A stretch of 32,908 nucleotides of DNA, from the NCBI GenBank assembly GCA_018985235.1, contig JADGIG010000044.1, positions 1 through 32,908 of the forward strand. The letters run 5' to 3'. The notes below the pieces were generated by a model. It was not told the DNA's origin and ran no database searches. It saw only the letters and a list, made by a program, of their open reading frames with translations. Position 1 is the first letter of the stretch. Every line of letters begins with the position of its first letter. Below, in pieces: positions 4,705 to 32,908 of the stretch. Origin of the DNA: Sanchytrium tribonematis. Taxonomy: Eukaryota; Sanchytriomycota; Sanchytriomycetes; Sanchytriales; Sanchytriaceae. A program made the translations under genes and the position numbers.

Positions 4705-5901
4705 ATGAGATTACAATTGATTTTATTAACCTTGATTGCTGCAAGTCCACTGACACCTTATGATCAGCCAGATTTGACTGCCATTTACGGTGATCAAGCA
4801 CCCCCAAGTGAAGATCCATCCCAAGCGCAACCAGAGCCAGAGAATGAACCAACTCAAGAGCCAGAATATGAACCAGTTCAAACTCAAGAGCCAGAAGTTG
4901 AGCCTGCTCAAGAGACAGAACCATGCAGTGAGCCAGAACAAACTCAAGAACCAGAAATAGAACCAATTCAAACTCAAGAACCAGAAGTCGAACCTGCTCA
5001 AGAAACTGAGCCATGCACTGAACCTGAAAGTGAACCCGAAAGTGAACCTGAAGTTGAACCAGCAACTAGTGAACCAACTGAAGAAGTTCCAGTCGCACCT
5101 ACCAACTCATATATACCCCCTACTGTTGAACCTGCTCAAGAGACTGAGCCATGCACTGAGCCAGAGACTGAGCCAGAAAGTGAACCAGAAAGTGAACCAG
5201 AGAGCGAGCCAGAAACCGAACCAGCTCAATCAACAGAGCCATGCACTGAGCCAGAGACTGAACCAGAAACAGAACCAGAGAATGAACCAGAACCACAACC
5301 TACAAATACCTATCAAACTCCAATTGTTTCCCCTGCTCATGAAACTGAGCCAACAACACCCGTCCAGCCAATTAACTCTTACATACCACCAACTACTGAA
5401 CCAGAAGTATCTCCAGCTCATGAATCTGAACCAGTTGAACAACCAATCGTCACAAATGCTTACAATACACCACAAGTCCAAGATACCAATGAAAATTCCC
5501 CAACTCCTTCTAACTCATACGATACACCTAGTGTATTAGATACCTCAGTACCAGCAGCAGGAACACCAGAAGAAGAATTGCCATATTGTGATGAATTACC
5601 TGAAGGTACAGGAGAGCCAGTTGGAGAGCCAGAAAGCGAACCAACCTCAGTACCAGAAGTATCTCCAGCACACGAAACTGAACCTGCTAGTGAACCAGCA
5701 GTACAACCAGCTGGAAGTGAACCAGAGCCAGAAGTTGCACCAGGAAATGAAGAACCAATGCCAGCAGCAGAACCAACTGAGCCAGCACCACCTACAAATG
5801 CATATGGAGGCGCAGATGCCCCAATGAGTACAGAATTCTACTCTTCTGGCAGCATCGCAAGTTCATCTGTGTTTATATTGGCAGTATTGACTCAAATATA
5901 A
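4705..5901 (+). CDS. Glu/Pro-rich repetitive surface protein 1, probable GPI anchor
   Basis: Encodes 398 residues. A short signal peptide ([15 protein letters not shown]) leads into a long low-complexity region dominated by E-P-E/E-P-x steps, including four TEPC[ST]EPE blocks. An N-[SAT]-Y-x-[TP]-P-like motif recurs (NSYIPP twice, NTYQTP, NAYNTP, NSYDTP). An SPAHETEP motif also repeats. The C-terminus is Ser-rich then hydrophobic ([13 protein letters not shown]) with no basic tail, as expected for GPI attachment. It would form an extended acidic rod at the cell surface or wall. The neighbour at 6237 is a relative. Reverse-strand ORFs here are artefacts of the GAA-CCA repetition. No enzymatic domain is visible. 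Confidence 0.75.
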
Positions 5902-6236: not shown

Positions 6237-7058
6237 ATGAAGTACATTTTATTGTCCGCTGTATTTGCAATCCCTTGTGATGAAAAAGCACCTGATACTA
6301 ACAATGCGTATCCACAAAACTTACCTGCACACAATGCTCCACCTTCCCATCCAACTCCTTCTCATCTAGAATCACGTCATGAGCCACATCACGAGCCACA
6401 TCATGAACCATCTCATGAGCCGCCAAAGCACGAGCCATCTCCTCCTGCTGGGCCACCAGCTGGACCACCTCCAGGAGAATTACCAGGACACGGCCAGCCA
6501 CCAGCGCCAGCGCATACTGAGCCAGTTGAAGAACCAACCCAAGAGCCTGAATCAGAACCTACTGAGCCAGCGCCACCTGCAGAATTACCAGGAAACGGAT
6601 TACCAGCTGCACCAACTAGCGAGCCTGAATCAGAACCAGAATCAGAACCTACCGAACCAGCTCCACCTGCAGAATTACCAGGAAACGGACTACCAGCTGC
6701 ACCAACTAGCGAGCCAGAATCAGAACCAGAATCAGAACCTACCGAACCAGCTCCACCTGCAGAATTACCAGGAAGTGCCGCACCAGAAGAAACTGAAGAC
6801 TGTGAAGAGGAAGAACCTACTCAAGAACCTGCTGTATCTCCAGCAAATTCTGAACCTGCACAAGAAACTGAACCTGTAGAAGAACCTCAACCAGCATATC
6901 CTGGTGTGCCTGCTGGCCCACCTTCTGCAAATCCAGCGCAAGCCACAGATGCACCTCCAGCGCCATTACCAGGTAACGATGTTTACGAATTCTCTAGTGC
7001 AAATACCAATATTGCTGCTATATCGATCATGGGTGCAATACTATTGGCCAGTTTCTAA
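6237..7058 (+). CDS. Glu/Pro-rich repetitive surface protein 2, probable GPI anchor
   Basis: Encodes 273 residues. The signal peptide is very short (MKYILLSAVFAIPC). It is followed by a His/Pro-rich part (repeated HEPHHEP-like units), Pro/Gly-rich PPAGPPAGPP blocks, then a tandem repeat whose unit carries [21 protein letters not shown] and NGLPAAPTS. The tail is Ser-rich then hydrophobic (IAAISIMGAILLASF), consistent with a GPI signal. Composition and EPESEP units link it to the protein at 4705, so the pair is a tandem family of cell-surface or wall rods. The His-rich N-terminal block could bind metal, but that is speculative. No enzyme domain is visible. Confidence 0.75.
   Translation: MKYILLSAVFAIPCDEKAPDTNNAYPQNLPAHNAPPSHPTPSHLESRHEPHHEPHHEPSHEPPKHEPSPPAGPPAGPPPGELPGHGQPPAPAHTEPVEEPTQEPESEPTEPAPPAELPGNGLPAAPTSEPESEPESEPTEPAPPAELPGNGLPAAPTSEPESEPESEPTEPAPPAELPGSAAPEETEDCEEEEPTQEPAVSPANSEPAQETEPVEEPQPAYPGVPAGPPSANPAQATDAPPAPLPGNDVYEFSSANTNIAAISIMGAILLASF
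6543..6773 (+). repeat. 90-nt in-frame tandem repeat
   Basis: Units start at 6543 (78 nt, lacking one EPES block), 6621 (90 nt) and 6711 (partial). The full unit encodes 30 residues. Copies at 6621 and 6711 are nearly identical, so the array is recent or homogenised and likely length-variable between isolates. Confidence 0.85.
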
Positions 7059-9291: not shown

Positions 9292-11809
9292 TTATAACAG
9301 TTCACTGGCTCTGAACGCTGAATTTGCTGCTCTTCTCCATTTTTTCCGTTCAAATCTGGTGCAGTATGGTAACGCAATGATAAGGAATGAATTTAATATC
9401 ATTTTGACGATTGCAAACACGCTTAAATTGATAAAATCATTCAATTTATAGACGGGTTTAAAGAATGAATTTGCTAATGTGGTTTGGAAGATTTGAGATG
9501 ATGTTGCAGAAGATGTAATGGAATCCGAGTGATATACTACATCTGAAGTAGTCTTGAAAAATATTCTTCTGATCAAAATAGACTCTAAATAAATAAAATA
9601 TACGCTTGGAATCATCAATAGAGTAAGGATTAAATTCAATTTGATCAGATAATGAGATGGTTGTAGTAGTTACAGGCAATGTGTCTGTATTGACAAAGCT
9701 AGAAATACTAGACTCAGAAAGAATCAAATTTTGTTTCAAAAATGAATCTGAGTTATTTGCACAAATTTCCAAATTGGTGGCATTCAAAATTGGATTTTTA
9801 GTAATGTCACAATATTTTAGAGTATCAGGAGCAGCAATATACACATTAGAGATTGAATTATTGTATAAATACAAGAATTTTTCAGAATTTAGTTCCAACA
9901 TAGACACATTTCCACTAAAATTATTAGAATCCAATTGATTTGGTAATCCCAATACCAAAGTAATCATATTGGGTGGCAGAGTGGGTAAGACAGTGTTGAT
10001 TTTATTACTTTGTAAAAATAAATGCGCCAAACTTGTTGGAAATGGACCAGTTAGATTTGTAAATTGATTAAATGACAAATCTAAATTAATCATGCCATTT
10101 GGTATAAGTGGAATTGTGCCACTTAATTGATTATGATTCATATTTCCAACACTGATTTTGCCAAATCCTGGTAAATTGCCACTTAATTTGTTATTTTGTA
10201 CAAAAATTGAATCTGCATTTGGTGGAATATAAATTGGACCACTAAATTGATTATCATTTGCATAATAATACTTGGCATTGGGTGCTTCTGGCATCGTACC
10301 ATTAAATTTGTTGCCATTAATATAAAACTGAAGTGCATTCATAAATTTTTGAGTAATTTGGCCACTAAATTGGTTATTGTCGATTGAAATGGTACCTATA
10401 TTTGCAAAATCAGGTATGGAACCATTAATTTTGTTGTTTGTAATCGCAATAAAACTTAAATTTTGAGGTACTTGGCCAACAATATTGACAAAATTATTGT
10501 TGCTCAAAAAAAGTATTGTAAGACCTTTTGGCAATAAATCCATGTCTAAAGTGATTTCTGGTTCTATAGAGTTGAAAGAATTCCATGTAATTTCCAAGAC
10601 AATCCTTTCATAGCAATATATTTCCGACAATGAACAGCAATCTTGACTAATAGAATCAAAGTAATCAGGCTTATTAAGATCTAATTTCATTGATTTGGCG
10701 AATATTGCAAGTTGTTCGCATCCATATCCGCTCTTCGAAGGTTTATTCGTTTGACAATTGACGGGTAGATTAGATGAATTTGAAATTGGATTATTTTTTA
10801 GAATGCAATAATTGTCAATATCACCAATAGAACAGGTTCCGTCTATCACCTTTACACTTGAGACATCATTATTAGTAATATTTAAAAAGCAGTTATTCTT
10901 TAAAATGCTAACTTCGCCATAAAAATGATTGTTGGAAATATCTATATTTTGAACAGATTCCGCGGAAATCCAATTGGACATGTTGCCAGTCAAATTGTTG
11001 TTTTTAATTGTTAGTTCTATTATGTTAAAGAAACTAGGCTCAAATATCCCACTTAATCGATTATTATCCAATCTTAAAATTCCCAAATTTGAAAGATTGG
11101 GAATATTTCCGATAAATAAATTATTGCTTGCAGTCAAACTGTACAGTAATGGAGGAAATGCAGGCAGGGAACCACTTAATAAATTGTGTTGTATCGAAAT
11201 AAACAATACTTGTGTTGGAAATACTTCAATTTTTCCAGAAAATAGATTATAATCAAATGATCCAAACTGAAGCGCATCTGATAGTTTATTTGCCAATGTG
11301 CCATTAAATTGATTCTTGTCGCAATAAACTTGACTTGTACCCACCATTTTTGGTAATTTTCCACTTAATTTGTTATTTGACACTTTCATATAATCTCCAA
11401 AAAAATCAAAATTTAATTGACCAACTAAATGATTGCCACTAATAGAAAGATAGGCTAATGTTGGTGGGAATGTGACATTAGCTATTTCATTTAATCTGTT
11501 ATAGTCTATGGCAAAAAAATCAGATGGTAATTTGAAATTCAAAATTCCAGTCAACTCATTAAAACTCAGATCTAGCCTTCTCAAATTTGGCGGATACACA
11601 AGATCAGTTACATCACCATCTAAACCAAGACTTACCCAATAGATACTCTTTACTTGACCATTAGAACACTCAACACCCAAACAACAATCTACCAAGTTAG
11701 TCGCGTACATTCTAGGTTGTCGACGATCTAATCCGAGTTTTTGGGCCATTTTAATGACAATATTACAATCTGAAATGACTCCCAGAATAAAGTAGTAAAG
11801 TAAAATCAT
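9292..11809 (-). CDS. LRR-B: two-cassette LRR membrane protein, one 19-nt intron
   Basis: CDS is complement(join(9292..9584, 9604..11809)), 832 residues. ATG 11809 aligns with that of LRR-C, with a signal peptide (MILLYYFILGVIS). Two cassettes follow, each with a DC...DCC cap and plant-like LRRs (NQLSGTIP, NNKLSGNLP); the second cap is near nt 10730. Read without splicing, the frame leaves the family pattern after DDSKR. Removing the 19-nt intron gives a stalk, one membrane segment (about NLSVFAIVKMILNSFLIIALPYC) and a short basic tail. It is probably a surface recognition or adhesion protein; no cytoplasmic signalling domain is seen. It is a close paralogue of LRR-C (14956), with homology starting about 18 nt before the ATG and ending near the RFER codons. 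It therefore lacks LRR-C's TATA-like sequence. It sits between 25-nt direct repeats. Confidence 0.8.
9585..9603 (-). other. 19-nt intron in LRR-B
   Basis: Sense sequence GTATATTTTATTTATTTAG, GT...AG bounded and identical in LRR-C. Excision changes the frame so that a membrane-spanning C-terminus conserved with LRR-C follows. Confidence 0.8.
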
Positions 11810-11846
11810 GTTAAAGATCAAGCCACGCAGTTTCGAAAAGAAATAA

Positions 11847-11871
11847 ATTTCAATAAAAGACACTTAATTTC
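11847..11871 (+). repeat. 25-nt direct repeat, right copy (at SET-gene stop)
   Basis: Identical to 9197-9221. It contains the SET-gene stop (TTA at 11864-11866, TAA on the minus strand). The AATAAA it carries on the plus strand has no plus-strand gene to serve here. Confidence 0.9.
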
Positions 11872-14925: not shown

Positions 14926-14955
14926 TAATGAACCAGTTGTGGCTTGATCTCAAAC

Positions 14956-17491
14956 ATGATTTTAATTTACTACTTTATTTTTGGAATTATTTCAGATTGT
15001 GATATAGTGATTAAAATGGCTCAAAAATTGGGATTAAATCATCAACAACCAAGAATGTACGCGAATATCCAAATAGATTGCTGTTTACCCTATGAAATGA
15101 CTGGAATTTGGTGTTCTGATGGACACGTCAAATACATCTTTTGGGATAGCCTCGGATTAGATGGAGATGTGACCAATCTTGAATATCCACCTAATGTGGC
15201 AGAATTTTATTTAGATAATAACAATTTAAAGGGAAGTTTAAATTTCAAGTTACCATCTGATGTATTTGTGATTGATCATAATAGATTAAGTGGTATTTTT
15301 AATGCAACTGTACCAGTGACATTAGATCGTTTATCATTTACAGATAATCAATTGGAGGGAATATTGGATTTCGATTTTCATGGAAGTGATTTGGGAGTTT
15401 CAAAAAATAAATTCACTGGCAATTTGCCACGTATGAATGCTATCACATATTTGGCATGCCAAATGAATCTGTTTAATGGTACACTGACTAATAAGCTACC
15501 AAATACACTTCAATATGGATCATTTGAGTCTAATCAATTTATTGGTGAAATTGGAGCATTTCCAACACAAGCCAGGTCTATTTCGATGCATCACAATCTA
15601 TTGAATGGTACACTACCGGCATTTCCTTCACTGCTTAATAGTTTTATTGCAAGTAATAATCTGTTTATTGGAAATATTCCATTTTTAAAGAATTTGAAGA
15701 CGTTGAAATTGGATAATAACCATTTAAATGGAATATTTGAACCTATTACCACCAATTTATTGGAATTAACAATAAAAAACAACACTTTGACTGGTAATAT
15801 GTCTAATTGGGTGTCTGCAGAATCCATTCAAAAATTAGATATCTCTGACAATCATTTTTATGGCGAAATTCGCATTTTAAAGAACAACTGCTATGTTAAT
15901 ATTACTAGCAATAATATTACGAGTGTCAAATTGATAGACGGAAGTTGTTCTGCCGGTGGGATTGACAATTATTGCAGTATTAAAAATAATCCAATTTCAA
16001 ATTTCACCAGTTTACCACTAAATTGTGAATCAAATCATGTTTTCAAAAGTGGATATGGATGCGAACAGCTTATAATGCTAGCAATATCAATGAAAATTGA
16101 TTTAATCAACCCAGAATACTTTGATTCACTGAACCAAGATTGTTGCTTATCTGCAAATATACATTGCAGCCAAGGCAGTGTCGATAAAATTCAATGGAAT
16201 TCTATTAATACTCTTGGTTTTGAAATCACTTTAGACATGGATTTATTGCCTAAAGGTCTTGCAAGTCTTTCATTGAGCAACAATAATCTTGTCAAAATGA
16301 TTGGCCAAGTACCTCAAAGTTTAAACTTTATTGAGATTTCCTACAATAAAATCAACGGGACTCTTCCTGATTGTGCAAATTTACGCACCATTTTAATCGA
16401 CCATAATCAATTTAGTGGCCAAATTACTCAAAAAGTCATCAATGCACTTCAGTTTTATATTAATGGTAACAACTTTAATGGTACGATGCCAGAAGCACCC
16501 AATGCCAAGTATTATTATGCAAATGATAATCAATTTAGTGGTGCGATTTATATTCCGCCAAATACGGATCAATTGTTTGTACAAAATAACAAATTAAGTG
16601 GCAATTTACCAGGATTTGGCAAAATAAGTTATGGAAATATGAATCATAATCAATTAAGTGGCACAATTCCACTTATACCAAATGGCATGATTAATTTAGA
16701 TTTGTCATTTAATCAATTTACAAATCTAACTGGTCCATTTCCAACCAGTTTGGAGCATTTATTTTTACAAAGTAATAAAATCAACACTATTTTACCCACT
16801 CTGCCACCCAATATGATTACTTTGGTACTTGGATTACCAAATCAATTGGATTCTAATAATTTTAGTGGAAATGTGACCATGTTGGAACTAAATTCTGATA
16901 AATTCTTGTATTTATACAATAATTCAATCTCTAATGTATATATTGCTGCTCCTAATACTCTAAAATATTGTGATATTACTAAAAATCCAAATTTAAATGC
17001 CACCAATTTGGAAAATTGTGCAAATAACTCAGATTCATTTTTGAAACAAAATTTGATTCTTTCTGAGTCTAGTATTTCTAGCTTTGTCAATACAGACACA
17101 TTGCCTGCAACCACTACAACCATCTCATTATCTGATCAAATTGAATTGAATTCTTACTCTACTGATGAATCCAAGCGTATATTTTATTTATTTAGAGTCT
17201 ATTTTGATCAGAAGAGTATTTTTCAAGACTACTTCAGATGTAGTATATCACTCGGATTCCATTAAATCGTCTAAAACATCCACCCAAATTATCCAAACCA
17301 CATTAGCAAATTCATTCTTTAAACCCGTCTATAAATTGAATGATTTTATCAATCTAAGTGTGTTTGCAATCGTCAAAATGATATTAAATTCATTACTTAT
17401 CATTGCATTACCATATTGCACCAGATTCGAAAGATCTAAAATCACCAAAATATCCACTTCATATTTCTCTGCAAATAAATCAATTTCTTGA
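14956..17491 (+). CDS. LRR-C: two-cassette LRR membrane protein, one 19-nt intron
   Basis: CDS is join(14956..17176, 17196..17491), 838 residues. A signal peptide (MILIYYFIFGIIS) is followed by two cassettes with Cys caps (SDCDIVIKMAQKLGL...DCC; second cap near nt 16060) and LRRs of the N-x-L-x-G-x-I-P type. A Ser/Thr-containing stalk, one membrane segment and a basic tail follow. Without splicing the ORF ends at ...SISLGFH before any membrane segment; excision of the 19-nt intron restores one. The post-intron frame is conserved with LRR-B: in the last roughly 110 nt before RFER, five of six differences that I count are synonymous. It is probably a surface recognition or adhesion protein. Its TGA stop lies 6 nt from the TAG stop of the convergent gene. 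Confidence 0.82.
17177..17195 (+). other. 19-nt intron in LRR-C
   Basis: GTATATTTTATTTATTTAG between AAGC and AGTC; phase 1, giving K-Q-S-I-L-I across the joint. Identical in LRR-B. Confidence 0.8.
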
Positions 17492-20215: not shown

Positions 20216-21232
20216 TTATTGGTGATACACTGTTAATCCCAACCAGTAAAATACAATTCCAAATAATGCTTCTTCTCCAATCTCAACCATATCATATAAA
20301 ATCACTTTAGTTTCAGCACTAGAAGCATCTTCTTTTCTCAATTTCAATTCACCTTTACGTAATTTTAATCCTTGTAAAATATCAGCGCATTCTGTAGGTG
20401 TTTTTGTCCCATAGTTTTTAACAGTGCATCCATTTGCCAATGCTGACTGACAGGCATCTTTTGCTTCTTCATTACACGTTCCTAAATGTAAATTAAGTAA
20501 ATCGACATCATAGCAACTATAACTACGCGGTGGTACTCCTTCTGGACATATTTCTACATGCGAGGATCTGTCACAGTCACCCAATCCAAATACACACTCA
20601 CCCAATTTCGCATTTGATTTATCATAGGATTTTTGTGCTTCATTAGCAACTTCGGTGAAGGAATTTGTTTTGACTTCTTCCAACTTGCGATTAAATGTTG
20701 TGAGTTCGTGCAATCCACCAATTCCCATTAATCCCACAATTAATAAAACCACTTTTGCCCATTTGGGATTTATAGAAGCCACTCCATTTCTCAGACGTCT
20801 GAATTGTTCTTGACCAAAATCAGATAAAGTCACAGTGGGTGCAGAATTGTCATTTGCACTTGATGTGTCACCAACTGTATCTATTTCAAATTCATCTGGA
20901 TCCCGACTATCTCTAGTGCCGACTTGTTCATACCCATTTTGCATTCTCTTTTTCAAATGACCGTTGCGTGTCAATTTGACACCTGCATATTGCAAAATGC
21001 TACCAAGACATTCTTTGTGTTGCAAGCCATATGTTCTAATTCTATTTAATAATTGGTTGGCTAGATCTTTAGCCTGACCAACAGGGCAGCTTGATGGATC
21101 TAACAAACACTTTGGGATAAACATATTGTAATTTGCTACTAAACTTTGGCCATCTACCATTGTGGATTTCAATGATTTCAAATTACATCTACTCGCCATC
21201 ATTGAGTACAGTACAATTGTAAATAGTACCAT
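20216..21232 (-). CDS. Tandem two-TM family protein 1 of 3
   Basis: Encodes 338 residues. A short hydrophobic leader (MVLFTIVLYSMMA) precedes SRC. A Cys-containing N-terminal region follows, with a conserved GYE preceded by HLKKRMQN. Next come an acidic linker, a membrane segment (about residues 160-178, VVLLIVGLMGIGG) and a Cys-rich domain with L-G-T-C-N, then C-x-x-A-L-x-N-G-C. A C-terminal membrane segment (GIVFYWLGL) ends the protein. The gene at 21450 is a close paralogue and the one at 22472 a more distant one. No known family recognised. Probably surface membrane proteins of a lineage-specific set. The stop lies 18 nt from that of homoaconitase. Confidence 0.65.
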   Translation of the reverse strand: MVLFTIVLYSMMASRCNLKSLKSTMVDGQSLVANYNMFIPKCLLDPSSCPVGQAKDLANQLLNRIRTYGLQHKECLGSILQYAGVKLTRNGHLKKRMQNGYEQVGTRDSRDPDEFEIDTVGDTSSANDNSAPTVTLSDFGQEQFRRLRNGVASINPKWAKVVLLIVGLMGIGGLHELTTFNRKLEEVKTNSFTEVANEAQKSYDKSNAKLGECVFGLGDCDRSSHVEICPEGVPPRSYSCYDVDLLNLHLGTCNEEAKDACQSALANGCTVKNYGTKTPTECADILQGLKLRKGELKLRKEDASSAETKVILYDMVEIGEEALFGIVFYWLGLTVYHQ

Positions 21233-21360
21233 TGACAGGGGTGTTTGACTATCAATTTTGTCAATTTAACTTGATCTTTGCGTTGGGGTAACACGTGCTG
21301 CTGTATTTGAAAGGAAATGTAATTTGATTGGACGATAAGAATGATAATGGTATAAGAACT

Positions 21361-21394
21361 CAAATTGTTTATTTTACCATCTCCAATCCCAGTA
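21361..21394 (-). pseudogene. Relic of a paralogue 3' end
   Basis: On the minus strand this matches the last codons of the family member ending at 21450 (shared GGAGAT and AAACAATTTG blocks with small gaps). It suggests a lost copy or partial duplication between genes 1 and 2. Confidence 0.35.
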
Positions 21395-21449
21395 CATATG
21401 CCACACATGCAGCCAACAATTTGATGGGACTGGCACTGAATGAGAATAT

Positions 21450-22370
21450 TCAAATCAAATTGTTTATTATTTTCTCAATCTCCATTCCCAAATAATACAA
21501 TACTATTCCAAGCAAGACATATTCTCCAATTTCTAAAAATGTATAGAAAATCACTTTAGATTTAGCAAAATATGGTTCTATTTGTTGTAGATCCAATTGA
21601 TTTTTCAATTGATTGATTCTAATCTGGTTAAGAGCACATGCTTCAGATGATTTTGAACCATATTGGGTAATTTGACATCCATTTGCCAATGCATTATTGC
21701 ATGATTCTAATAAATTTGGATTGCAAATACCCAGATGCGATTCAATTACATTTTCATGGTGATTACTGGTACATGTTGGATTAAACTGAAAGAAACAATT
21801 TGCATCAAACTCTGATTTTTGATTTAAATAGTGTTGATAATTGGTTTTGTACGCATTTAGAAGCATATTTGTTTCTGATACTTTGATATCAAAATGGAAA
21901 TCTGTGATTCCATAAGCTGCACCAATGGCTATTAATCCTACAATTAATAAAATGATTTTTGCCCATTTAATATTCATTTGACCATCTCGGAATAAACCTA
22001 GCATATTTTGAATAGTGGGTTCCTCAAAGCTCGTTGTTGGTGATTCAACATCTGCAGTTACTGGTTCATACCCATTTTGCATTCTCTTTTTCAAGTGATC
22101 GCGTGTCAATTTGACACCTGCATATTGCAAAATCCCATCTTGACATTCTTTGTGTCGCAAGCCAAATGTTCTAATTCTCTTCAATATTTGGTTGGCTAAG
22201 TCTCTAGTTCTTTTAACAATGGGGCATCTTGATGGTTCCAACAAAGACTCTGGAATGCTACTTTGATGTTCATCTACCAAACTTTGGCCAATTGCCATTG
22301 TGGCTTTCAATTGCTCTAGTTTACATCTACTTGCCATCATTGAGTACATTACAATTGTAAATAGTACCAT
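21450..22370 (-). CDS. Tandem two-TM family protein 2 of 3
   Basis: Encodes 306 residues. It aligns closely with the gene at 20216: the same leader (MVLFTIVMYSMMASRC), the G-Q-S-L-V stretch, the LQYAGVKLTR and HLKKRMQNGYE blocks, a membrane segment WAKIILLIVGLIAIG and the C-terminal L-G-I-C-N, C-x-x-A-L-A-N-G-C and membrane segment. Its linker is shorter. Both promoters carry AGTCAAAC about 20 nt before the ATG. Function unknown. Confidence 0.65.
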   Translation of the reverse strand: MVLFTIVMYSMMASRCKLEQLKATMAIGQSLVDEHQSSIPESLLEPSRCPIVKRTRDLANQILKRIRTFGLRHKECQDGILQYAGVKLTRDHLKKRMQNGYEPVTADVESPTTSFEEPTIQNMLGLFRDGQMNIKWAKIILLIVGLIAIGAAYGITDFHFDIKVSETNMLLNAYKTNYQHYLNQKSEFDANCFFQFNPTCTSNHHENVIESHLGICNPNLLESCNNALANGCQITQYGSKSSEACALNQIRINQLKNQLDLQQIEPYFAKSKVIFYTFLEIGEYVLLGIVLYYLGMEIEKIINNLI

Positions 22371-22471
22371 TTTAAAAAAGAGGAGGTTTGACTGTTAAAC
22401 GATGATGCCATTAAAAGTGCCTGGGGAAACATGTGGTTAAACAAAAGTCATTTCATCAATTTATCATTTAT

Positions 22472-23500
22472 TTATTGAAAAATTGATTTTTTTAATTCAT
22501 AGAGAAAGACTGGCCATATCGCTCCCATGATAAATGCAATCACTTTAAGAGTTAAATCAATCCCATCACTATTCCCTGCTAATAGTGCTTTGTATCTCTT
22601 GTCATTCAAATTCTGTTTATAAGTAGCATCTAAACCAATACATTCTTCAGTAGTGTTTAATCCTTCTTGTACAATCAAGCATCCATTTTGTAATGCTCCC
22701 TCACACAATTCTCCAACCCATTTCACATTTGTATTGCAAGTACCTAATAATGGATCCACAAGTTTCTCTTCATAGCATGCAGCACCGGATGGACTTGATC
22801 GCGGACAAATTACTTCTGTTCTTGATACTGGGCATTCATCATTTAAATCAAACTTGCATCCCAGTTGTAATGCCATTTCTGATGCTCTCAATTGATCTCG
22901 AGCTGTTTTTAATGCTTCATTTGCTACAGCTGATTTAGGAAGATGACTAAAAAGTCCATATAATACACCACATAAAAATAAACTCATAAGAAATACAAGA
23001 GTCATAGTTTCTCTTACTGTGAATTTGACTTCGCTGAACTGCACATTTCGCGTGGCTACCACTCCATCAGTTGGAACATTATTTGCTGCTGCTTGGATTG
23101 ATACATCATTTGCATCGGGTTGTGAAATGACTGGTGAATCAGGTTGAGCTTGATTTTCTTCGTCTTCACTTTCTTCACTATCAACTCTGTTGTACCCGCT
23201 ACCTCTACCACCTCTCTTGTGCAGTCGTTCTTGCCCTGGGGCCGTTTTTTCTAATTCTAATACTTTGAGACATTCTGGATATTTCTCCAACAATTTCTCT
23301 AATCGACGCCATCGCAACTGAGCATACTCATTTTCGCCTGATTTACGAGGACATTGTGATTCATCTTTGATTCTCACCAACTTTTTAATTGAGTCTTCAT
23401 GTTTTGCAAGAAATGGTTCAGAATCTCTGGCCCACTTCTTAAGTGGCTTCCGATTGCATTTCTTTGCCATGACAATACACAACAAAATTGGGAAGAGCAT
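22472..23500 (-). CDS. Tandem two-TM family protein 3 of 3 (divergent)
   Basis: Encodes 342 residues from ATG 23500, chosen because its leader (MLFPILLCIVMAKKC) aligns with those of the other two; the longer ORF to 23572 adds residues with no counterpart. The plan is the same: a basic Cys-containing N-part, an acidic Ser/Glu linker (SEESEDEENQ), a membrane segment (LVFLMSLFLCGVLYGLF), a Cys domain with L-G-T-C-N and C-x-x-A-L-x-N-G-C, and a C-terminal membrane segment. It is clearly older or faster evolving than the other pair. Function unknown. Confidence 0.6.
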   Translation of the reverse strand: MLFPILLCIVMAKKCNRKPLKKWARDSEPFLAKHEDSIKKLVRIKDESQCPRKSGENEYAQLRWRRLEKLLEKYPECLKVLELEKTAPGQERLHKRGGRGSGYNRVDSEESEDEENQAQPDSPVISQPDANDVSIQAAANNVPTDGVVATRNVQFSEVKFTVRETMTLVFLMSLFLCGVLYGLFSHLPKSAVANEALKTARDQLRASEMALQLGCKFDLNDECPVSRTEVICPRSSPSGAACYEEKLVDPLLGTCNTNVKWVGELCEGALQNGCLIVQEGLNTTEECIGLDATYKQNLNDKRYKALLAGNSDGIDLTLKVIAFIMGAIWPVFLYELKKSIFQ

Positions 23501-23658
23501 TGCACGTTCAAAAGGGGGATAAATGGTCAGATAGAATGATGTCATTTTAGAGACATGCGTAAACACGTGCATTGAAAATGGCGCAATTTGATGATCTGTG
23601 CATTTGATTCCAAATATTTGATTTTATTGTACGAATGGATGAAATTTTCAAATTAATA

Positions 23659-24736: not shown

Positions 24737-25096
24737 ATGTTGATTTCTTTATTATTTGCTTCAACTGAAATAGCACAAGTATCTACCGTGGGAGAGGGTG
24801 AATTATGTGGATGGCAAAATAACAATGCAATTTGTAAGGGATATTGTAGTTTATGGGGAAAATGTAGAACTTCAATTTGGTTTAAATTCAATTGTCAGCC
24901 AGCTACCAGTCAAACATTGTGTTATGATAATGGTAAATGTGGTGAACAGCCTAATGGGACTAAAAGATTTTGTACTAAAGATCGATATTGTAGTTCATCC
25001 AAATATTGTGGCGTCACTTATGAATATATCAATACGTGTAGCATTGAATATAGTGGTCCTGATACATGTAAAATTGATCATCCCCCAAAGGAGTGA
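24737..25096 (+). CDS. Cys-rich secreted protein 1 of 3 (short)
   Basis: Encodes 119 residues. Leader MLISLLFASTEIA, then a Cys-rich module shared with the gene at 26349: LCGWQN, C-x-G-x-C-S-L-x-G-x-C, C-x6-LC, NGxC/GTC, KxFC, YSGPDTC versus FSGPNAC. It stops just after that shared point while the paralogue continues for a further ~110 residues, so it looks like a shortened version of the same protein. Stop is TGA. Cys spacing suggests disulphide-stabilised extracellular modules. No known family recognised; a role at the cell surface or toward a host or prey is possible but unproven. Confidence 0.65.
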   Translation: MLISLLFASTEIAQVSTVGEGELCGWQNNNAICKGYCSLWGKCRTSIWFKFNCQPATSQTLCYDNGKCGEQPNGTKRFCTKDRYCSSSKYCGVTYEYINTCSIEYSGPDTCKIDHPPKE

Positions 25097-25277
25097 CAAT
25101 TTTAACAAATAAAAAGAGTTTTAAACACATTTTATTTTGAAACATTGTACAACCACATGATATTCCAATACGAACTACGCCACTAAAGCCAACAATCCGA
25201 TGGATTTTAAATCGACTCGTGCAGCAAGTGCTTGCCAAATTTGCAAGTACCAATAATTGTCAGGCAAGCTACTTTGC

Positions 25278-25288
25278 CCAATCAAATG
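25278..25288 (+). promoter_or_regulatory. CCAAT box of Cys-rich gene 2
   Basis: CCAATCAAATG, 55 nt before ATG 25333, identical to 24675-24685. Confidence 0.5.
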
Positions 25289-25332
25289 GCATTGCAATCC
25301 ACTATTTAAATCATGTACCCACACATGGTAAA

Positions 25333-26190
25333 ATGTTTTACATGATACTACAACCCATCTCGGCATCAATCCAATGTGGACTCATTGATGGTAAGCGCAC
25401 AGTTAAATGTCCAGCTGGATATGCTTGTAGTTCAAAGAACATTTGCACAAAATTAACCACGCCAATGCGAGAACCAGATTGCATTCGAGAATTTAGTTTG
25501 ACGGGTACATGTAGGAAGAAATTATGTGACAATTCTGGTAAATCGGAATATACATGTCCAGATAAATATCAATGTGAAATATTTCACAATGGCAGATTTG
25601 GCATTTGTAAAGAAGATGTGCCACCTCAAGGGGATCCTCAATATTGTTATAACAAAAAATCTGGCAGTAGAACATGTACAGATGACGAATATTGCGACAA
25701 GGGAAACTATGCAAACGTTAAAAAAGATCTACGATTTCTTGATGGCTTATGTTTTAAACAGGAATGCGGTGTGAAAAATGGCAAAGTGCTTCAGTGTGTG
25801 GATCCTGACAAACCAAATTGTTTTTTGAGTGCATTTCAAAAGAAATTAGGCAATGACAAAGGATATTGTCTTCCTGGTGGAGATGATGAGTATTATCCTT
25901 GCGATGGCAAATACAGTTACAATGGAGCTTGTGAGCATAAGACACCCCCTTTATTTACCCCTACTCAAAGTCAACAAGATTCAATTCGTAAAAATTGTGA
26001 AAAGGAGAACCCAGATTATGGAACTTGTGGTCTTTATAGCGATTGTGATGGATCAGACTTCATACTCCCAATGTCCTGCTTACATGACTCATATTGCAAT
26101 TTTTACTCGGATATTATGGGAAATTGCGATTCAGTTCCAAATAACAATGGTACTTGTGAGAGCAATTTTGGAAAAGACTGTCCAGAATAA
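25333..26190 (+). CDS. Cys-rich secreted protein 2 of 3 (long)
   Basis: Encodes 285 residues from ATG 25333; the frame is open further upstream but has no ATG there, and this start gives a short leader (MFYMILQPISASIQC). Some 30 Cys are spread over modules such as VKCPAGYACSSKNIC, YTCPDKYQCE, RTCTDDEYCDKG and LQCVDPDKPNC, plus a C-terminal part with GTCGLYSDCDGS and GNCDSV. The recurring x-C-x-x-x-x-x-C pairs resemble those in the neighbouring genes, though end-to-end similarity is weaker. Likely an extracellular disulphide-rich protein; specific function unknown. A CCAAT box lies 55 nt upstream. Confidence 0.6.
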   Translation: MFYMILQPISASIQCGLIDGKRTVKCPAGYACSSKNICTKLTTPMREPDCIREFSLTGTCRKKLCDNSGKSEYTCPDKYQCEIFHNGRFGICKEDVPPQGDPQYCYNKKSGSRTCTDDEYCDKGNYANVKKDLRFLDGLCFKQECGVKNGKVLQCVDPDKPNCFLSAFQKKLGNDKGYCLPGGDDEYYPCDGKYSYNGACEHKTPPLFTPTQSQQDSIRKNCEKENPDYGTCGLYSDCDGSDFILPMSCLHDSYCNFYSDIMGNCDSVPNNNGTCESNFGKDCPE

Positions 26191-26252
26191 ATCAAATTTA
26201 AAAATCTCTTCAAACTCGATTTTGCAGTAAATTCTGTGCTCATTTAAGTGAG

Positions 26253-26294
26253 CCATATACAGAACATGTGCACGGTGATTGCATCCAATCCAAT
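26253..26294 (+). promoter_or_regulatory. Shared promoter element of Cys-rich genes, copy 2
   Basis: Matches 24643-24684 at about 35 of 42 positions, including TGCACGGTGATTGCA. A CCAATCA box follows at 26290-26296, 59 nt before ATG 26349. Confidence 0.6.
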
Positions 26295-26348
26295 CACGAA
26301 ATAGATTATGGTTAATGATTTAAGGAGTCATCGTCTCTTTTTTTACAA

Positions 26349-27038
26349 ATGAATTACATTTTGATGACTTTATTATTTGCAGAAATATCTTATGCTAAAG
26401 TGGGCCAGGGCTGTGGATGGCAAAACAAGAATACAATGTGTGATGGATTATGCAGTTTGGAAGGGGTTTGTATGCCAAATAAAAAGATATACAGATCAAA
26501 ATGCCAGTCACATGCTAGTAAAGCATTGTGTTTTGGAGATGGAACTTGTGGGAATTTTGACAATGGTATCAAGAAATTTTGTGCAAGAAACCATGTGTGC
26601 GAAGAAGGTAAATGTGTTACAGCAACGGACCATTTGGGTTATTGTGACAGTACCTTTTCAGGGCCCAATGCGTGTGGCGATATTCAGTGCGGAGGAGGAC
26701 AATATTGTCCGATTTACAAGCCATATTGTTTGTCAGACAGTTCCACTACAACTGGATATTCATGTCAAGTGGACGCGCCATTTCAACAGGATTGTCAAGC
26801 ATTTAGTTCTCTAGATAGGTGCCCACTTCAGGTAATACCTTGTGGAGAGCTTACCACGTCTCAACACACCGCCGTGGTAAATTGTCCAAAAGAAATCCCA
26901 TATTGCGTCGAAAAGTATAATCCTAGTTTTTTTGCTACAGTCAGCGTCTGCCAAAAAGAATTTAATTACAGGATTAGTGGCCAAACATGTTTTCCTGAAA
27001 ACAGTTCTTCCGAATGTCCCGGACCCTCACCGCCATAA
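26349..27038 (+). CDS. Cys-rich secreted protein 3 of 3
   Basis: Encodes 229 residues. Leader MNYILMTLLFAEISYA, then GCGWQN, C-D-G-L-C-S-L-E-G-V-C, KALCFGDGTCG, KKFC and FSGPNAC, aligning with the gene at 24737. An additional Cys-rich half follows (CGGGQYCPIYKPYC, CPLQVIPCG, CPKEIPYC), ending Pro/Ser-rich. Probably a disulphide-rich extracellular protein. It shares an upstream element with the first gene. Its stop is 7 nt from that of the convergent kinase-like gene. Confidence 0.65.
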   Translation: MNYILMTLLFAEISYAKVGQGCGWQNKNTMCDGLCSLEGVCMPNKKIYRSKCQSHASKALCFGDGTCGNFDNGIKKFCARNHVCEEGKCVTATDHLGYCDSTFSGPNACGDIQCGGGQYCPIYKPYCLSDSSTTTGYSCQVDAPFQQDCQAFSSLDRCPLQVIPCGELTTSQHTAVVNCPKEIPYCVEKYNPSFFATVSVCQKEFNYRISGQTCFPENSSSECPGPSPP

Positions 27039-29162: not shown

Positions 29163-32100
29163 TTATCGAGTCAATACTCTACTAATTCCATCAATTTTAT
29201 CAGCTGGTCGAGTGCGAATCCCTCCAAAATAACCCCTTTTAAACAAAGATTTCTTCACAAAATCAAATGCAATAATACCCATTCCAGTACCAATAGCAAC
29301 CATCCACACTTGCCATCTAGGTCCCTTTACTCCAAATATATCTTGTAATCCCGGTGTATACAATAATAAGCAACTCACGCCAATACTCCATGGAATACTC
29401 ATAAAATGCGTCTTATTCTTGAAGATTCTAGTCGTATTAATCGTATCAATCTTCAATTTCACAATAAACAAGTCAAATACTTGTGGAAATACGATATTTA
29501 ACCAATACGCACCAGCAGCTTCAGCATATAAAATAGAGTAAATATCATATGTCACATTGTTAATTTGAGTATAATTGCCACTTGCATCCACTGGAAATGT
29601 TCGATTTCCCCATAATTGACTGGGTGAAATATTGTAAAATACATTATTTTGAGTGATTCCCAAATAAAACACCAAAAAGAATGAAATAGTGCCACCAATC
29701 ATTTGAATCAATCCAATTTGAGTATAACTTTGCAACATGAGATTCAAATCAATTAATGAATCATCTTTTTCATTATTTTTAAATGTCCATAATGAATTTG
29801 CAATTTTTTGCAACCATGTTTGATGTGGGCGAGTCACTTGATCAATTCGAAATGATGGGATACGACTTAATGCTCTGGCTTCTTCATCACTATTCACTAC
29901 TAATCGTGCGGGTGGCTTGATGGTGCGTCGTGGATTCTCTTGCATTAAATCATTCTCTTCTGGTTCATTGACGAGTAATATAGCTGGTAATGAGTCAATA
30001 AACAGGTCAATCATGATAATAATCAACGCAGTACACAAAGAAGGTATTGGGAATATGATATATGCGATAAATGACCAATTTTCAGCCACTAAATCAATTT
30101 AAATTACTAATATGCGAAATAGTGTATAAAATGGCCTTTTTAAGATTAGCAAATACCAATCTGCCACTTGCAATACCCTCTACAATTGATGCAAAATCAT
30201 CATCCATTAAAATCATTTTAGCAGCTTCTTTGGACACATCACTTCCAGAAATATTCATGGATATTCCCAAGTCTGCTCGCTTTAGTGCGGGTGCATCATT
30301 CACACCGTCACCTGTAACCGCTACAATATGACCCATAGCTTGTGCACGTGCAACAATTTCTAGTTTTTGAGCAGGGGATGTGCGTGCAAATACGATTTCT
30401 TTTTTAGCCAATATTTTATGCCATTCTCTGTTGCTCATTTGTGATAAATCATCACCATGTACAATCACTGCCTTGTATTCATCTTCACTGATACTCTCAA
30501 TGGGTCTATTGGTGCGTGTGGCTACTTGTAATTTCGTTTCTCCTCTAATTAATCCAACTTGTCTGGCAATAGATTCACAGGTTAATGGATGGTCTCCACT
30601 CACCATATACACTGTAATACCAGCTGTTTGACAACTCGCAATGGCTTTATTCACTCGTGGCTTTGGTGGATCTTGTAATCCAATTAATCCTGTAAATGTT
30701 AATTCACTGGTTAATTCTGATGCATTGAATTCGTTAGATGCTGGCATGGTCTTTGTAGCACACGCCAATACACGCTGTCCTTGAGATGCTAATTGTTTAT
30801 ACGCAGCATTGAATAAATCAATAAATGCGTCATTTTTCAATTTCAACTCATTTTCATGATAAATATGACGACACATTTCTAAGACACGCTCAGGTGCTCC
30901 TTTTAAATACACGACATGTTCGTTATTCTGCTGATGCACAGTTAATGCCCATTTATTACTAGAATTAAATGGAATTTGATAAACAAGGGGAAATACCTGT
31001 TTGATTTCATTTAAATCTATCTGTTGACTGATAAATCGTAAAATACCAGATTCCGTTGCATCTCCCTAACATGAGTATGAATTACTATAATCTTTCTTTT
31101 GTTAATGTCACTACTTGTGTCATTTAAATCAAATTCTGCTTTTCTATTCAATGCACAGCATAATAAGAGGGGATGCTGGTCATTTAATGGCAATTTTGAT
31201 GTGTTGCTGACTTGCAAATGTCCATTTGACTCGGATGATTCACTATTTTGTGGTGGAATCCATAAATCAACCACTGTCATTTTATTTTGAGTCATAGTAC
31301 CTGTTTTATCACTTGCAATTAATGTAACAGCACCCAATGTATCTAATCCTTCAATATCTTTGACTAAAACATTCTTTTTAATTAATCGATTTGCAGAAAT
31401 AGTCAGCATGAACAAGGTGATGGCGGGTAATCCTTGTGGGATATTACCTACAAATATACCAATGAAGAATGTGAAATTAGTGACTACATCTGGATTCTCA
31501 AGCATCCCAATGAGAAAGAATAATCCCCCTAAAACAATCGAGATGAGGGTGATTAATCGAACAAATTTGGAGATTTCTTCATTTAATGGGGATTTTAAAG
31601 TTGATTTGGCATTGGATAATTGAGCAATACTTCCAATCACTGTATCTTTACCTATTTTAATCACTAATCCTGTCATTTCTCCACTCACACATAATGTCCC
31701 AAAAAATGCTAGATTTTCTGCTTCCATTGGATTACTTTTAGTGGTTTTAGTTGATCTAGTCAATGCATCTGCTTCTCCTGTCAATGATGAATTGTCTACT
31801 TTACAAACCACAGATTTAATCACTCGAATATCAGCAGGGATTTTATCACCTTCTTTAATCTGGATCACATCTCCCTTGACTAATTCACGACTAGGGATGA
31901 TGCATAACTTGCCTTCTCTCAATACTGTTGCATTCTGACTAATTAGAGAAGCAAACGATTTCAAAACAGATTGCGTTTTGACTTCTTGGATTGTTTGGAC
32001 TGCAGAGTTGAATGCGACTACAAAGAACAAGACACCTGCTAAATAGTAATTGGAAATAGCATATGAGACTGGAAATGCTTGTAAAATCAGGCATAATGCA

Positions 32101-32426
32101 CCCGCAAATGACAGCAACACATTAAAGGTGCCAAATAAGTAAATGACAAATAAATAAATGGCTGGTGTTTGTTTAGGTGGTTTTAATTCATTATAGCCAT
32201 CTAATTGCCGCTGACTAACTTGATTAGGAGTTAACCCAGTGGTCAAATTGGATTCTAAATAAGAGACTAAATCAGGGAGGGGGACCAAATGTTCAGTAAC
32301 ATCAGCTTGTTTTTTAAGAGTGGGTGAATGCGTAGACGCTTCTTGTTCAAATACCAGTACATCCATATCTTGTAGCTTGTTTGAACTGGCTACAAGCAAC
32401 TCTTCGTCTTTTGAAGAGTTCTGCAT
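29163..32426 (-). CDS. Type IIC (Na,K-ATPase-like) P-type ATPase, two ultrashort introns
   Basis: CDS is complement(join(29163..30088, 30108..31065, 31086..32426)), 1074 residues. A plasma-membrane cation pump using an aspartyl-phosphate. Motifs: L-T-G-E-A (216-219; usually TGES), M4 P330-Q-G-L-P, phosphorylated D373 in DKTGTMTQ, KGAPER, T-G-D-G-V-N-D-A-P-A-L, and M6 I-D-L-x-x-D-x-x-P-A-I. N-terminal GLTPNQV and the IPFNSSNKW stretch place it with animal-type alpha subunits. From the M5 NLKKAILYT stretch to M6 it aligns without gaps to Na,K-ATPase, keeping the M5 Glu and both M6 Asp. The M4 Glu is replaced by Gln (PQGL for PEGL), so ion binding may differ. Splicing restores GDATES after exon 1 and a continuous M5 after exon 2. 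A reverse CCAAT box (32539-32545) lies 113 nt upstream. Confidence 0.92.
30089..30107 (-). other. 19-nt intron 2 of the ATPase
   Basis: Sense GTAATTTAAATTGATTTAG. It contains an in-frame stop if retained. Excision joins CATATTA to TGGCTGAA, giving H-I-M-A-E-N-W and an ungapped M5-M6 alignment with Na,K-ATPase. Confidence 0.9.
31066..31085 (-). other. 20-nt intron 1 of the ATPase
   Basis: Sense GTAATTCATACTCATGTTAG. Excision joins K-R-K-I-I to G-D-A-T-E-S-G-I, the expected GDASES-type motif. Without splicing the frame runs to an unrelated tail and stop. Confidence 0.93.
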
Positions 32427-32908
32427 TTCAAATTATTTTGGGGAGGCGTTGAGCTTTTATCGCGATGACATGTCCATGTTGAGAGCCAAATGGCAGACGA
32501 TGAGTCATTTTGAGTGGATGGGACTTTGAAACTAAGCCTGATTGGATTAGATATGCGATTACGAGGTTCAATAAGCACTCGCTTCCCACATTTGAGAATG
32601 GGTCAAGTCATGAAGAAAAATTGTAGGAGTACACAAGTTATTTATTACATTGAAGATGCTCAGATTATTAATTTAGAGTCGAAATCTGAGTATTTTCAAA
32701 GATCGGGTGCTTCCGATTATTTTGGATGCGTGTTCTTTTAGAGGACATACTTAGTGTAGAAAGCAGAATTCATTCAAATTCATGGTTTAATTAAAAGTAT
32801 TGGAAATTTCCAAGTTGATTGACAAATGAAATCTGTTTCAAATAAACCGGAGTCAAAATCGATTAAAAATCAACAAAATTGTTTTTTTTTTTTTTTTTTT
32901 TTTTTTTT
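32427..32908. other. ATPase upstream region ending in poly-T
   Basis: No convincing gene in 482 nt; a 69-75 codon plus-strand ORF here has no leader or motif. It holds a TATA-like GATAAAAG (minus, about 32456-32463), TGAGTCA (32501-32507), TGATTGG (32539-32545) and, at 32882-32908, about 27 consecutive T, which may be a contig end or assembly artefact. Confidence 0.5.

Follow-up and report, generated by a model that had tools for sequence, protein, structure and literature searches.

An interrupted P-type ATPase gene

The 32,908-nt stretch of DNA analysed here (the window), which is contig C251 of a genome whose source is apparently a sanchytrid fungus parasitic on algae, carries on its minus strand a P-type ATPase gene (29163-32426) whose reading is split across three frames (Table 1). 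The original prediction placed two inserts in this gene; each string occurs in it exactly once, and their lengths of 20 and 19 nt are both indivisible by three. Excision yields the anticipated 3225-nt coding sequence, in frame and with a terminal stop, encoding 1074 residues in which the conserved motifs are restored. The product carries the E1-E2 and hydrolase domains along with a C-terminal cation ATPase domain in a single chain, consistent with membership of the Na,K/H,K-like (IIC) P-type ATPases. Homologs of the pump bear Na/K pump names, and the solved structures matched by its last exon include alpha chains of Na,K- and H,K-ATPases. The contig itself ends in a T run (32882-32908), perhaps marking an assembly stop.

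An insertion at either pump junction is absent from all 12 aligned homologs (P0001-P0012), a set that includes gene predictions, so that absence at the DNA level is shown by its ORF-derived members only. Two of the 12 are paralogs from the same genome, Na,K-like pumps on contigs G000:C237 and G000:C161 that are each 54% identical to the window copy and read in one frame through both junctions.

A third distinct intron had also been proposed for the window and is present in two copies, the same 19-mer occurring in each of two twin LRR genes (Table 1). These genes (9458-11863, minus strand, and 14944-17491, plus strand) lie in opposite orientation, and their spliced proteins are 74% identical over 839 aligned positions. 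Elsewhere the window encodes Glu/Pro-repeat proteins with N-terminal hydrophobic stretches that are probably secreted or surface-exposed (4705-5901 and 6237-7058, plus strand), three tandem and mutually similar membrane-like proteins (20216-23572, minus strand; two were scanned, both without a Pfam match), and adjacent cysteine-rich, secreted-looking proteins (24737-27038, plus strand), of which those at 25219-26190 and 26349-27038 have no Pfam match.

Table 1. Exons and putative introns of the pump and LRR genes, with positions counted from the first base of the window
Feature	Position	Strand	Supporting evidence
P-type ATPase exon 1, 1341 nt from ATG	31086..32426	-	Pfam E1-E2_ATPase and Cation_ATPase_N
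Pump intron 1, GTAATTCATACTCATGTTAG, 20 nt, phase 0, residues 447/448 (KII|GDATES)	31066..31085	-	Excision and homologs
Pump exon 2, 958 nt	30108..31065	-	Pfam Hydrolase
Pump intron 2, GTAATTTAAATTGATTTAG, 19 nt, phase 1, codon 767 (SHI|MAEN)	30089..30107	-	Excision, homologs and ORF scan
Pump exon 3, 926 nt including stop	29163..30088	-	Pfam Cation_ATPase_C
19-nt intron GTATATTTTATTTATTTAG, near 3' end of LRR gene	9585..9603	-	Joined frames form an 850-codon ORF
Identical 19-nt intron, twin LRR gene	17177..17195	+	Joined frames span 842 codons

A genome-wide class of 19- and 20-nt inserts

The genome searched comprises 6,336,753 bases in 311 contigs and has a GC content of 35.2% (over 233 kb). 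A strict motif, GTA-N(k)-YTNATTTAG, which was derived from several candidate introns before the genome-wide count, matched 11, 385, 74 and 9 times at 18, 19, 20 and 21 nt, respectively, on both strands of the 6.34 Mb. The reversed pattern gave 37, 49, 32 and 25 matches at the same lengths. At 18 and 21 nt this control outnumbers the motif itself and so does not provide a matched background; neighbouring lengths (~10 matches) were used instead. By this measure the survey of intron lengths that had been advised reveals a genome-wide class at 19-20 nt, with 18 and 21 nt at background. The same motif ends spaced 22 to 51 nt apart produced 445 matches against 855 for the control, and 25 of the first 50 among 100 matches listed just share the 3' end of a 19- or 20-mer, so no second length class was seen.

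A motif-free scan of 233 kb for reading frames that are broken without excision, covering all dinucleotide pairs and lengths of 12 to 60 nt, returned GT-AG at 19 nt as the top outlier when 100 open codons were required on each side (6 vs 0.42 expected). The same combination ranked eighth at 60 codons (7 vs 1.56) and fell outside the top eight at 140 codons (3 vs 0.36). A coarse decoy comparison in 5-nt bins found no excess at 19 nt over background, nor did a codon-usage scan set this length apart. The model behind the latter had been trained on long ORFs, antisense ones included, and its threshold discarded nearly everything, so plain ORF tests took its place. In 261 kb, a profile scan for lengths of 14 to 45 nt, with the profile seeded by candidates from the same data, identified 74 candidates, of which 29 measure 19 nt and 7 measure 20 nt (5.65 and 2.15, respectively, with shuffled profiles), and all other lengths together gave 38 candidates vs about 39 with shuffled profiles. 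By these counts, nearly all introns in this genome appear to be within a few nucleotides of one minimal length. Extrapolation from the self-seeded profile to 6.34 Mb provides an estimate of roughly 700-900 introns. Some longer introns with different motifs may accompany them; homology support was lacking for a 25-nt candidate (L008) and a 32-nt one (L023). One 21-nt candidate, GTACATTTTAAATTGATTTAG, on the minus strand of G000:C22 (L037, locus position 1644), scores on a par with true 19-mers and could represent a rare intron of this length.

Strict 19- and 20-nt matches in 261 kb clearly join open frames in 21 of 24 cases. One of the others (L012:9049-9067) is ambiguous because its unspliced frame remains open for 85 codons, and the remaining two (L014:4237 and L023:4322) do not join open frames. 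Spliced proteins from 8 of 14 candidates of a first set and from 10 of the 24 strict matches were scanned against Pfam. A domain spans the junction in six of the former (NAD kinase, histone deacetylase, SNF1-like kinase, OST3/OST6, homogentisate dioxygenase and Rpb1) and seven of the latter (ferric reductase NAD-binding, GH31, HEAT repeat, GATA finger, anoctamin, Ras family and FH2), and in the other 5 of the 18 proteins the domain ends before or begins after the junction, or there is no domain.

Intron consensus and spliceosomal components

The profile scan supplied 36 of the 39 introns compared; pump intron 1, the second LRR copy and L012:9049 were included manually. All begin with GTA and end with AG, GT and AG having been search conditions for the set, and their A+T content is 79%. 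Counting back from the 3' end, T occupies position -8 in 94%, A position -6 in 94% and T position -5 in 92%; position +5 is never G. The resulting consensus is GTA - (about 7 nt) - YTNAT - NNAG. It had been thought that the introns of the window leave no room for a canonical distance from branch point to 3' splice site, a view that does not hold, as a YTNAY element occurs at a fixed place, with its A at -6, in 34 of the 39 introns and at -7 in the 20-nt pump intron. The latter is an atypical member of the class; its branch-like element is CTCAT, it does not match the strict motif and, with a score of 10.7, it has the poorest consensus fit of the 15 profile seeds. Pump intron 2 has the branch-like element TTGAT with A at -6. 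Assignment to the U2 type agrees with the GT-AG ends of the pump introns, as read from their sequence, with the rank of GT-AG at 19 nt above other dinucleotide pairs at 100 codons, and with the branch-point-like sequence upstream of the 3' splice site.

The genome encodes a U2 snRNA (115.9 bits) with a GUAGUA box, a U6 snRNA (61.8 bits) with ACAGAGA, and a U1-like RNA with the 5' sequence AUACUUACCU / ACUUACCU that scores 43.7 bits, under the Rfam cut-off of 69.5. A Prp8 domain (213.2 bits) lies inside a 2239-aa open frame. The canonical recognition boxes of U1, U2 and U6 are all present together with Prp8, as expected of a U2-type machinery, with the U1 candidate below Rfam's cut-off; the snRNA survey covered these three. 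Losses of spliceosome components, suggested earlier as a point to check, were not observed among the testable parts: U2, U6 and Prp8 were found, and U1 under its cut-off. A genome search for SF1-HH gave no match anywhere and is uninformative by the tool's own note. The search for the U2AF large subunit is likewise uninformative, with 20 matches of which none is above the cut-off, and two bacterial controls matching too. Its best match, a 431-aa RRM protein, was not taken as U2AF and presumably resembles RBM39 instead.

These features indicate that a conventional U2-type spliceosome removes the 19-20-nt introns. In such a scheme U1, and then U6, would recognise GTA(A/T)(T/A)T, and the intact GUAGUA box of U2 snRNA would pair with YTNAY. 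The branch A at position 14 of 19 would then attack the 5' splice site, and the 3' splice site would be the first AG, five bases downstream of the branch A, without an intervening polypyrimidine tract. As the spacing is nearly fixed (13 nt from the 5' splice site to the branch A and 5 nt from there to the end), the machinery would act as a ruler. Neither 19 nor 20 is a multiple of three, so every retained intron shifts the reading frame.

Intron sites shared with relatives

By protein similarity the closest relatives are a second EukProt assembly and a set of ENA proteins. After these, the best named matches are Paraphysoderma, Allomyces and Blastocladiella for NAD kinase and Sorochytrium for homogentisate dioxygenase, all of which we take to be Blastocladiomycota. 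Both the homogentisate dioxygenase deposited for the present assembly (P0121, 319 aa) and the 81% identical one of a relative (P0122, 325 aa) end directly after FHRN, beyond which Blastocladiomycota homologs, P0124 and P0155 among them, have C/V-MSEFMG. Back-translation of the P0122 tail, WYFILI-stop, gives GTAYTTYATHYTNATHT(A/G)(A/G), matching a consensus intron of 19 nt in which TAG would serve as the stop. Similarly, the NAD kinases of this assembly (P0241) and of relatives (P0242, P0243 and P0244) all end after HTL. The tails of all four relatives' proteins (P0122, P0242, P0243 and P0244) encode GTAY, and a full consensus intron fits three of them, P0242 at 20 nt and P0122 and P0243 at 19 nt, the latter two formally also allowing 23 or 24 nt, given that the deposited proteins end at the stop; the tail of P0244 is too short for an intron length. 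Since the sites are common to separately sequenced genomes, sequencing error is excluded for homogentisate dioxygenase and NAD kinase.

The published sanchytrid genomes are SPAdes contigs of 10.5 and 11.2 Mb with 35-36% GC, from a lineage sister to Blastocladiomycota, and their proteins were called by TransDecoder directly on contigs (PMC8371127). The present genome agrees with this description in its 35.2% GC, in the existence of a sister assembly and in having Blastocladiomycota among its nearest named matches, so that a sanchytrid source is likely. The main text of that report has the word "intron" once, in a reference, and is free of "splic" (PMC8371127). Our results suggest that published proteomes hold many entries truncated at introns. 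Because deposited proteins are cut at the intron in the two genes checked, statements on gene loss and completeness in sanchytrids may need to be re-examined.

Alternative explanations

We conclude that the pump inserts are almost certainly U2-type spliceosomal introns belonging to a genome-wide, length-locked class of mostly 19 and some 20 nt in a probable sanchytrid fungus. The original prediction, which placed two ultrashort spliceosomal introns in the nuclear genome of a fungus-like organism, is thereby supported as the best reading, and it appears to hold genome-wide. This conclusion is drawn at the level of sequence, through exact excision, the length lock, the consensus and the conservation of intron sites in relatives. 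Frame changes could in principle arise from assembly or amplification errors, such as indels introduced during whole-genome amplification of a single sporangium, and published sanchytrid assemblies were indeed made by whole-genome amplification (PMC8371127). However, inserts throughout the genome have one consensus and one length in common, and in two genes the deposited proteins of relatives end at the same site with tails starting GTAY, making error an extremely unlikely source of the inserts. Pseudogene decay of the pump gene, with both inserts as random insertions, is also very unlikely. In its favour, both inserts are absent from relatives and paralogs, and two intact paralogs exist elsewhere in the genome; against it, the rest of the 3225 nt is fully open, the inserts bear the genome-wide consensus, and the same class interrupts conserved genes including Rpb1, HDAC and NAD kinase.

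Spliceosomal excision must also be weighed against other ways of joining the frames. Removal by DNA elimination, comparable to that of ciliate internal eliminated sequences, or by an Ire1/tRNA-ligase-type cut has nothing specific in its favour beyond the fact that introns of 19-20 nt are close to the smallest that spliceosomes handle. Given the GT..AG ends of all 39 introns (by construction), the YTNAY element at a fixed distance matching an intact U2 box, and the presence of U1, U2, U6 and Prp8, we consider such a route very improbable. Programmed ribosomal frameshifting, for which no supporting point was found, would leave 6-7 extra residues inside motifs that are invariant in all 12 aligned homologs (KII/GDATES and SHI/MAEN) and would be needed twice in one pump gene as well as in many other genes; its probability is vanishingly small.

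Comparison with other minimal introns

Length-locked introns of 19-20 nt represent a regime so far known only in a few unrelated microbes; no report of a genome-wide class of this length in Fungi was found in the open-access literature among the matches listed. The nearest parallel in length is the chlorarachniophyte nucleomorph, described as having more than 800 introns of 18-21 nt, which resemble the present ones in length range, GT-AG ends, narrow distribution and AT-richness (PMC10245619). In contrast, the nucleomorph is a relict green-alga endosymbiont nucleus in Rhizaria rather than a fungal nucleus, and its reported range includes 18 and 21 nt, the lengths that are at background here. 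Mikrocytids, according to the same source, have introns of 16-17 nt (217 of 224 at 16 nt in Mikrocytos mackini) and share with the present fungus a parasitic lifestyle, a few hundred introns, two adjacent locked lengths and a conserved sequence (PMC10245619). They differ in belonging to Rhizaria, in having introns three nucleotides shorter, and in a spliceosome described as being down to 17-19 proteins, set against a survey of Prp8 and snRNAs here.

In the heterotrich ciliate Stentor, introns are reported to be 15-16 nt long, with the branch A at position 10 of 15 and a branch region without strong consensus (PMC9505925), whereas the branch motif is well conserved here. The branch A thus lies five bases before the intron end in both (position 14 of 19 here), and the 5' part is four bases longer here. 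A fungal case would provide a new independent test of what sets the lower length limit of the spliceosome, in which the distance from branch A to end is equal to that of Stentor and the 5' side differs by four bases. Among fungi, introns of 22-76 nt with GT-AG ends and strict motifs are described for the microsporidian Encephalitozoon cuniculi (PMC3629993), and the GT-AG introns of Cryptococcus neoformans include a 20-40-nt bin (PMC11913375). Single short fungal introns are therefore not new, but both species have a broad length range, with no locked 19-20-nt class in evidence in the data cited from these sources. A tendency towards degenerate signals is reported for lineages with short introns, and one towards strict signals for intron-poor lineages (PMC2483917); the present genome combines short introns in modest number with a clear branch motif at a fixed distance.

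We lean, by a narrow balance, towards extending the pattern to the whole phylum Sanchytriomycota, in which essentially all introns would have been converted to a fixed 19-20-nt format. The spliceosome, conventional in other respects, would work as a ruler, the lengths 18 and 21 nt, both multiples of three, would be missing, and every retention would shift the frame. Such a state would have originated independently and been overlooked owing to gene calls made on plain ORFs. The introns of the pump itself are not conserved, as the nearest relative (P0001) and other relatives are without both, which implies either gain here or loss there. With introns in one pump and absent from relatives, recent gain or loss of minimal introns becomes traceable. 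Within this genome, the window copy with two introns and the two uninterrupted paralogs (C237 and C161) form an internal contrast for intron gain or loss.
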